NCBI GenBank assembly: GCA_027051265.1 | Contig: JALTZH010000030.1 | Coordinates: forward strand, 1-6,105 | Length of the DNA stretch: 6,105 nt | From: an archaeon | Lineage (GTDB): Archaea > Hydrothermarchaeota > Hydrothermarchaeia > JALTZZ01 > JALUTC01 | Direction: 5' to 3' | Shown here: positions 2,858 through 4,794 of the stretch, one piece after another | Numbering within the stretch: the stretch's first letter is position 1 | Layout: each line of letters opens with the position of its first letter | Notes under the pieces: model-generated | What the model was told of the DNA's origin: nothing | Databases searched by the model: none | Seen by the model: the letters and a program-made list of their open reading frames with translations, nothing else | Program-made: the position numbers and the translations under genes

Positions 2858-3586
2858 TTACTCCTCTTCCTCTTCAATTTCTTTAAGACCTAATTTTTTA
2901 AGTTCTTCTTTAATTTTAACTGGAGAAATATCTCCAACAAATTTTATTTCATCGTTTATCATGACAACAAATTGAAACATGCCACCTTTCATAAGAATCT
3001 CCTTAACTTTTGGAAACATATCTATTTTGCTGCTGGTTACATCGATAGCTTCAACTATAACTTGGTCTCCGAATTTTCTCTTGAGATAGTTTTCTATTAT
3101 ATCTGCGTAAAGATGTACATCCTCATAATCCACATATTCATCCGATTCGTCTGCTATGTAATAATATTTTGAACCTCTACCAAATATTCTAACAATAACT
3201 TTTCCTTCTTTCTTAATTTTCTCTTCCTTTTCTAACGGTAAAGTTTTCGGTTTAAATCTTTCATCGATTATTTCTGAAGCTTGATAATTTTTGCATGTTT
3301 TCTCCTTTAATTCATCGAAGTACCATCTACCTGTAACTTCATCGAAAACAAAACCTACACACGTTTGATTTGTTAGTACGCATAGGGATTCCTCTCTATA
3401 CTTGCATGGTGCTTTAACCTCTTTAGGTAATTCAACTTTAACAGTATCTCTAGGTTTATATACGGGACATGCTTTTTCAAAATATTCATCGAAATACCAT
3501 TGATTCGATTCGGGATCAAATCTTTTACCAAAACAAGGTTTATTCATCAACGTACAATTTTCACCCTCTCTATACATACATGGCAT
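2858..3586 (-). CDS. Protein with two tandem four-Cys modules and a possible thioredoxin-like C-terminal domain
   Basis: A protein of 242 residues that I do not recognise as a named family. Numbering from the GTG at 3595, Cys 6, 14, 21, 43 and Cys 64, 72, 79, 101 form two modules with the same spacing, C-x7-C-x6-C-x21-C, each starting PC-x-YRE and containing a W-Y-F-D-E motif; they are a tandem duplication offset by 58 residues. Four Cys per module suggests a metal or Fe-S site, or disulfides. After a charged linker (about 108-131), residues 132-237 (KVIVRIFGRG, VEAIDV, FPKVKEI, FVVMINDEIKFVGDIS) resemble YuzD-like thioredoxin-fold proteins but lack a CxxC. The tail is Glu-rich. I prefer ATG 3586 as start because GAGGTG (3598-3593), six bases before it, is a good Shine-Dalgarno; the GTG at 3595, three codons upstream, lies inside that motif. 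It is the last gene of the L21e operon and is presumably cytoplasmic. Confidence 0.8.
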   Translation of the reverse strand: MPCMYREGENCTLMNKPCFGKRFDPESNQWYFDEYFEKACPVYKPRDTVKVELPKEVKAPCKYREESLCVLTNQTCVGFVFDEVTGRWYFDELKEKTCKNYQASEIIDERFKPKTLPLEKEEKIKKEGKVIVRIFGRGSKYYYIADESDEYVDYEDVHLYADIIENYLKRKFGDQVIVEAIDVTSSKIDMFPKVKEILMKGGMFQFVVMINDEIKFVGDISPVKIKEELKKLGLKEIEEEEE

Positions 3587-3592
3587 TTTAAA

Positions 3593-3598
3593 CACCTC
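3593..3598 (-). promoter_or_regulatory. Shine-Dalgarno GAGGTG that decides the start of the Cys-module gene
   Basis: Reads GAGGTG on the minus strand, overlapping the stop codon of the DUF655 gene, followed by TTTAAA and ATG (3586-3584). The spacing of 6 nt is normal. The GTG within this motif is the upstream alternative start, but it would have no Shine-Dalgarno of its own. Confidence 0.6.
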
Positions 3599-4163
3599 AT
3601 GGAGCTACGAAAAGTCTCCACTTTAACCTACCAGATCTCTCCTCTCCTCTTATTTCCATTAAAATTCTCTCAATAATAATTTTTTTAGGATCAGGTATTG
3701 ATTTAATCCTATCTTTTATATCTTTAAACGATTCAAATTTTTTCTTTTTTCTTTCTTCAAGAATTTCATGTAGGATTTTTTTACCAATACCAGGTAATAA
3801 TTCCAATTGATGTATTCTAACATTAATAGGTTTAGCATTGTTAAAGAAATTTATAAAACGGTTTTCATCTTCATCAACAATTTTTTTAACAGCTTCTTCT
3901 AAAGTGTCTTTTGCCAGAGAAGTTAGTTCTTCATATCTTATTCTTTTTTTTATATATTCAATTTTTTCTCTAAAACCTTTTCCTATGTAAACTTTTTCAA
4001 GAGGTTCGAGATAAACATTCCTTTTTGGTACCAATTCTAAAAGAACGAAATATTTTACACCTACGGCTTGAGCGATCGGTTCCTTTTTTAGTTCGGTAGG
4101 CTTTCCTTCAGGTAAAAAATCTAAAATTATTGCATATTCCTCTTGAAATTTCAAAACGATCAC
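3597..4163 (-). CDS. DUF655 family protein with helix-hairpin-helix motif
   Basis: A 188-residue archaeal protein of the DUF655 family, thought to bind nucleic acid; its exact role is unknown. The N-terminal part (about 1-63) is beta-rich (YAIILDFLPEG, AQAVGVKYFVLLELVP) and fits an OB/S1-like fold. The helix-hairpin-helix motif is LLPGIGKKILHEI at residues 122-134, preceded by the family-typical NVRIHQLE, and the protein ends in RLKWRLFVAP as the family usually does. It follows rpoF with a 4-bp overlap (GTGA) in the conserved cluster L21e-rpoF-DUF655. The first start is GTG 4163; TTG 4154 (residue 4) is a possible alternative because AAGGTGAT could act as its Shine-Dalgarno. The neighbours suggest a role linked to the ribosome or transcription machinery, which is inference. 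Confidence 0.92.
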   Translation of the reverse strand: MIVLKFQEEYAIILDFLPEGKPTELKKEPIAQAVGVKYFVLLELVPKRNVYLEPLEKVYIGKGFREKIEYIKKRIRYEELTSLAKDTLEEAVKKIVDEDENRFINFFNNAKPINVRIHQLELLPGIGKKILHEILEERKKKKFESFKDIKDRIKSIPDPKKIIIERILMEIRGEERSGRLKWRLFVAP

Positions 4164-4507
4164 CTTAGATATTTATAAACGATGTTCAGTATTTTTTCCA
4201 CATCCTCCTTGGTTAATATATATATTTCTTTCGCATATATAGCTCTAACCTCTTCTGGAGTTCTAGGCATTAAGTCAACGATTTTAATTGCAATTCTTTC
4301 GTTTATTTTATCTAACTTTAATAGCTCTTCCAACATCTTTTTTGCATCTTCAGCAGAGATTCTTATAAATTTTTTCAAATAATCTAGTGTTTGTTTAGTT
4401 ACATATGATACTTCCTGTATCTTTTTCTCTTTTATTAATTTCTCGAGTAATTCTTTAGCTTCTGCCATTGTTATCGTTTTTTCATCGAGAATCTTTTTTC
4501 CTATCAT
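4160..4507 (-). CDS. rpoF: DNA-directed RNA polymerase subunit F (Rpb4 homologue)
   Basis: A 115-residue subunit which, with subunit E (Rpb7), forms the stalk of archaeal RNA polymerase; the stalk aids promoter opening, RNA binding and termination. The sequence is nearly all helical. The signature LMPRTPEEVRAIYAKE (residues 79-94) is typical of RpoF and lies in the C-terminal HRDC-like domain; the N-terminal ILDEKTITMAEAKELLEKL (6-24) matches the region that contacts subunit E. Length is normal for the family. The ATG at 4507 overlaps the L21e stop (ATGA) and its stop overlaps the DUF655 start, so all three are translationally coupled. No subunit E gene is present in the window. Confidence 0.95.
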   Translation of the reverse strand: MIGKKILDEKTITMAEAKELLEKLIKEKKIQEVSYVTKQTLDYLKKFIRISAEDAKKMLEELLKLDKINERIAIKIVDLMPRTPEEVRAIYAKEIYILTKEDVEKILNIVYKYLR

Positions 4508-4794
4508 ACTTTTTTTAGATGAACAGGTAATACTATTAAAATTTTTTTACTATCCATATCTGGAACTTCTATGATATATGCTCTACCTCTTTTTCCTATC
4601 ACTTTACCAACCCTACCTTGAAATCGTGGATGAGGCATTCCTTTATGTACGCTTGGTTCTATATCAATTGCAACTCTGTCTCCTATGTTAAATTTCTGTA
4701 AATATCTTGTTATTGAAATCTTTCCTCTATTCCGTGGTGATTTTCTTAACACATGCCTACTACCAGCTCTAAACCCCTTAGATTTTGGTGCCAT
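4504..4794 (-). CDS. rpl21e: Large-subunit ribosomal protein L21e (eL21)
   Basis: A 96-residue basic protein of the 50S ribosomal subunit, found only in archaea and eukaryotes. It begins PKSKGFRAGSRHVLRK, contains the conserved GDRVAIDIEPSVHKGMPHPR and GRVGKVIGKRGRAYIIEV segments of its SH3-like barrel, and ends with a short basic tail. The length is standard. ATG 4794 is supported by GGGTGAT (minus strand, about 4801-4807) with a 6-nt spacer. It is the first gene of the operon; rpoF follows with a 4-bp overlap. Confidence 0.97.
   Translation of the reverse strand: MAPKSKGFRAGSRHVLRKSPRNRGKISITRYLQKFNIGDRVAIDIEPSVHKGMPHPRFQGRVGKVIGKRGRAYIIEVPDMDSKKILIVLPVHLKKV

Follow-up and report, generated by a model that had tools for sequence, protein, structure and literature searches.

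The described domain that comes closest to the C-terminal part of the protein discussed here is YuzD, or DUF1462 (Pfam PF07315), represented by 1xg8 from S. aureus. It is a thioredoxin-like domain of about 100 amino acids, devoid of any N-terminal four-cysteine module, with a CxxC motif after its first strand (CASC in 1xg8). A literature search retrieved a few mentions of it and no described role. Thioredoxins proper use a CxxC active site, and ArsD carries its cysteines in a thioredoxin-like domain. Yet other proteins, zinc ribbons and those with Fe-S modules, gather four invariant cysteines within a short module. Most small zinc ribbons have a CxxC knuckle, and the HiPIP-like module is found in the small subunits of decarboxylases.

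In the window, by which we mean the whole stretch of 6,105 nucleotides of archaeal DNA that was analysed, a single gene appears to bring together features of these systems. It is laid out, with its immediate surroundings, as follows:

2858-3595, minus strand: whole gene, an open reading frame of 245 amino acids with a GTG start; two four-Cys modules, a charged linker and a predicted thioredoxin-like C-terminal domain
2876..3202, minus strand: C-terminal thioredoxin-like, YuzD/DUF1462-like domain as predicted, residues 132-240; no Cys in the window protein
3281..3412, minus strand: module 2, residues 62-105, C64-x7-C72-x6-C79-x21-C101; counterpart, in the alignment, of the one module that every other homologue has
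3455..3586, minus strand: module 1, residues 4-47, C6-x7-C14-x6-C21-x21-C43; extra copy, in the window's genus only
3597..4163, minus strand: DUF655 gene, directly upstream, with a 1-bp gap
4160..4507, minus strand: rpoF (RNA polymerase Rpb4/F)
4504..4794, minus strand: ribosomal protein L21e

The original prediction had described a duplicated C-x7-C-x6-C-x21-C module with a shared W-Y-F-D-E motif, and the description stands: the eight cysteines fall into two identically spaced sets, the WYFDE motif is common to both, and the gapless alignment of one module with the other has a BLOSUM62 score of 124, to be compared with 50 for the best of 5000 shuffles (0/5000 reach 124). The span proposed at the same time, 2858-3586, needs a correction at one end. 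Its first coordinate holds, but 3586 is the edge of module 1, and the start codon extends the reading frame to 3595. The window's own genome has one copy of the gene.

Homologues, sought with a profile built from 18 sequences, are present in 16 of the 23 genomes of the window's phylum, or 12 of the 14 among those of good quality, and a search of 61 genomes found them confined to that phylum. In a scan of genome contigs the sister genome was the sole match, while scans of IMG/VR returned no homologue. A profile search of some 370 other archaea recovered the full family in none of them; its two marginal matches both concern just the C-terminal domain. The match in G089 is part of a 115-amino-acid reading frame; the other, a weak one in G318 (L057:1429-1773, plus strand), is a Cys-rich protein of 114 amino acids encoded directly after an FMN reductase gene. 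The protein is real, and it is known so far from one archaeal phylum only.

Homologues that would have lost the cysteines were looked for as well, and every homologue keeps all those of the module. The four of them are invariant in the 18 sequences, as is a glutamate located three residues before the last one. Outside the window's genus every homologue has one module; two are found in that genus only. As module 2 of the window protein aligns with the single module of its homologues, it is the N-terminal copy that we take as the extra one. The family is a single-module one, which the duplication has elaborated locally.

The module itself had been deemed impossible to name, and it still is. Scans of Pfam and NCBIfam with the protein, with all 18 homologues and with single modules gave nothing over the cut-off, and no significant match came out of the PDB sequences when they were searched with the protein or with the profiles of the family and of the module. 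When the module alone was searched for in 297 archaeal genomes, it retrieved the family only, besides one marginal and one weak match. The marginal match, in G230, covers 19 residues within a frame of 22 amino acids. The weak one, in G008 (L082:1423-1647, minus strand), is a 74-amino-acid reading frame with the pattern C-x7-C-x6-C-x13-CPVF, possibly a free-standing relative.

With its four invariant cysteines within a short module, this unit resembles zinc ribbons and Fe-S modules. It differs from them in its spacing, C-x7/10-C-x6-C-x21-C, where 7 or 10 residues separate the first two cysteines and the next two gaps are fixed at 6 and 21 in all homologues, so that not a single CxxC of the zinc-ribbon or zinc-knuckle type is present. 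The HiPIP-like module was also considered: the module profile matched no PDB chain at E values up to 10, and a relation, if there is one, would be distant. The confidence of the structure models of the module (AlphaFold, pLDDT roughly 30-53) is too low for a metal site to be placed in them. The four invariant cysteines suggest a candidate metal site. What comes out of this comparison is an unnamed, fully conserved four-Cys module, defined in one archaeal phylum.

The C-terminal domain, which had been seen as YuzD-like but without CxxC, proved to be just that, in sequence and in the predicted model. Pfam matches to DUF1462 appear below the cut-off in 10 of the 18 homologues (best E 2.7e-4), and in the best one the match is collinear over profile positions 13-93. 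The gathering score of PF07315 (25 bits) is not reached: the best homologues come to about 20 bits, the window protein has no match, and none of the 23 genomes of the phylum has a PF07315 match over the cut-off. With hhalign, the sequence of 1xg8, confirmed against 1xg8, gave an E value of 1.2e-4 and a probability of 55%. The AlphaFold model, made from two sequences, reaches good confidence over most of the stretch 121-240, with residues 142-157 as the exception, and has the strand and helix order of thioredoxins. Fold matches of the full model cover residues 115-240. With VIA-align against the PDB, 1xg8 came second (Z 9.2, rmsd 3.6, 99 of 108 residues aligned), its Z being tied with that of ordinary thioredoxin-domain proteins, and of the 50 matches that Foldseek listed it was the one with the best TM-score when scaled by target length (0.64). 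The profile matches, hhalign and the predicted model agree on a YuzD-like thioredoxin fold as in 1xg8.

The differences are in the cysteines. Where YuzD has a CxxC after strand 1, 14 of the 18 homologues have a C-x4..6-C pair, beside the position of the thioredoxin active site, and the thioredoxin-fold domain has no Cys whatsoever in the window's genus, G002 and G022. To thioredoxins, including the small archaeal thioredoxin 1nho, the domain is related by the order of strands and helices in the model and by a weak profile match (E 0.08), but it has no CxxC active site, a long low-confidence insertion follows strand 1, and there is the additional N-terminal module. Through this fusion to a Cys4 module, which DUF1462 does not have, YuzD-like domains gain a new context.

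The sole recurring neighbour of the family is a gene for a B12-binding radical SAM protein (PF02310 and PF04055), which is convergent with it in the archaeal families f3 (genus g5), f4 and f8; in G017 the C-terminal end of the radical SAM gene is found at the contig edge, 1.4 kb downstream. The two genes are convergent rather than co-directional, and they are not adjacent in the window's genome, g3 and g4. Because f4 and f8 have a wider syntenic block in common, which by eye resembles a molybdoenzyme operon, adjacency there may not be independent. Across the 23 genomes of the phylum, 15 have both genes and six have neither; of the two others, G009 (91% complete) has the family but not the enzyme, and G020 (62% complete) the enzyme but not the family. 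Fisher's test gives p 4.6e-4 for this co-occurrence when relatedness is ignored, and p 0.03 with the genomes at least 90% complete only. Four of the six genomes with neither gene belong to f5 and f6, and the co-occurrence may stem from a single loss in the clade that holds both. Outside the phylum, the enzyme has one homologue in the other archaea searched, in G044, a genome in which no member of the family was found. This protein of about 710 amino acids (L034:5106-7238 and homologues) is nearly confined to the phylum, and no NCBIfam equivalog matches it above the cut-off.

Other neighbours vary. They include, by eye, isopropylmalate or isocitrate dehydrogenase-like and chaperonin genes in G002, grpE in G003 together with dnaK, dnaJ and a P-type metal ATPase (these three by eye), a universal stress protein in G013, TctA in G004 (by eye also in G009) and DUF411 in G016. 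In the sister genome G001, a radical SAM/SPASM gene of the TIGR04084 family (L022:1705-2754, minus strand) directly follows the gene; it was not found downstream in the window.

We tentatively propose, with a probability of roughly 0.35 for the reading as a whole, that the gene product joins a Cys4 module for metal binding or redox work to a YuzD/DUF1462-like thioredoxin fold, possibly as a partner of the B12-binding radical SAM enzyme. The N-terminal module would most likely bind a single metal centre, either zinc or an Fe-S cluster, and two such centres are proposed in the window protein because of the genus-level duplication. Most relatives also have, in the thioredoxin-fold domain, a pair of cysteines close to where the active site usually lies, which makes it probable that the ancestral protein worked in thiol/metal redox chemistry or in metal handling. 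This pair is missing from the window's lineage, whose cysteines all lie in the modules, and the protein might act as a redox or metallo-partner of the phylum's radical SAM enzyme. The strength of what we infer decreases from metal binding by the module to redox or metal-transfer work, and from there to assistance to the radical SAM enzyme. A more specific version, in which the protein is a dedicated electron- or metal-delivery partner of that enzyme and in which one genus has transferred the redox site from its thioredoxin domain to the duplicated modules, we consider unlikely. If the link is real, a candidate partner has been named for a B12-binding radical SAM enzyme.

The same cysteines may be understood in a more static way. 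The module could be a structural zinc site carried by a scaffold or adaptor protein of YuzD-like type, which would perform no redox chemistry and have no particular tie to the radical SAM enzyme. This is a possible account, at odds somewhat short of even. Four invariant cysteines would suit a structural site, neighbourhoods are diverse, and the cysteine-free thioredoxin-fold domains of the window's genus, G002 and G022 indicate that thiol chemistry is dispensable there. It agrees less well with the missing CxxC knuckle, with the second Cys pair kept by most homologues, and with the adjacency to, and co-occurrence with, the radical SAM gene. The resemblance of the model to ArsD chains (Foldseek TM-scores by target of 0.60-0.61 among the matches listed), together with the DUF411 gene beside the family gene in G016 and the metal ATPase in G003, would rather evoke an ArsD-like or DUF411-like metallochaperone that passes a metal or metalloid from one protein to another. 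Neither neighbour is conserved, however, the thioredoxin fold is generic, and the window protein has no cysteine where ArsD has its own, in the thioredoxin-like domain, which makes this quite improbable.

A last interpretation goes back to the original prediction, where the place of the gene at the end of the L21e-rpoF-DUF655 operon suggested a protein that responds to redox state, zinc or Fe-S and is connected to translation or transcription, in other words a regulator. The local arrangement is indeed tight: L21e, rpoF, DUF655 and the gene are all on the same strand, the gene starts one base past the DUF655 stop, and the sister genome has the same adjacency. Yet DUF655, present in 22 of the 23 genomes of the phylum, adjoins the gene in two only, both of the window's genus; the remaining 14 genomes that carry the gene have DUF655 on a different contig, except for G008, where the distance is about 850 kb, and G002, where it was not found. 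It is also kept in seven genomes where the family was not found, four from f5/f6 and three incomplete. Only one genus shows the ribosomal-operon context, an operon-linked role for the family at large is largely refuted, and we give very little credence to the regulator. Our preferred view is still that of a metal or redox module on a thioredoxin fold.

Elsewhere in the window, a 34-nt direct repeat (85%; 1703-1736 and 2564-2597) flanks a coiled-coil open reading frame at 2014-2484, inside which 21-nt tandem repeats (2242-2367) encode coiled-coil heptads (DKRFEQV). A further arm, inverted and 21 nt long, lies at 2817-2837, and the direct repeat and this arm might together form a small element, mobile or regulatory.
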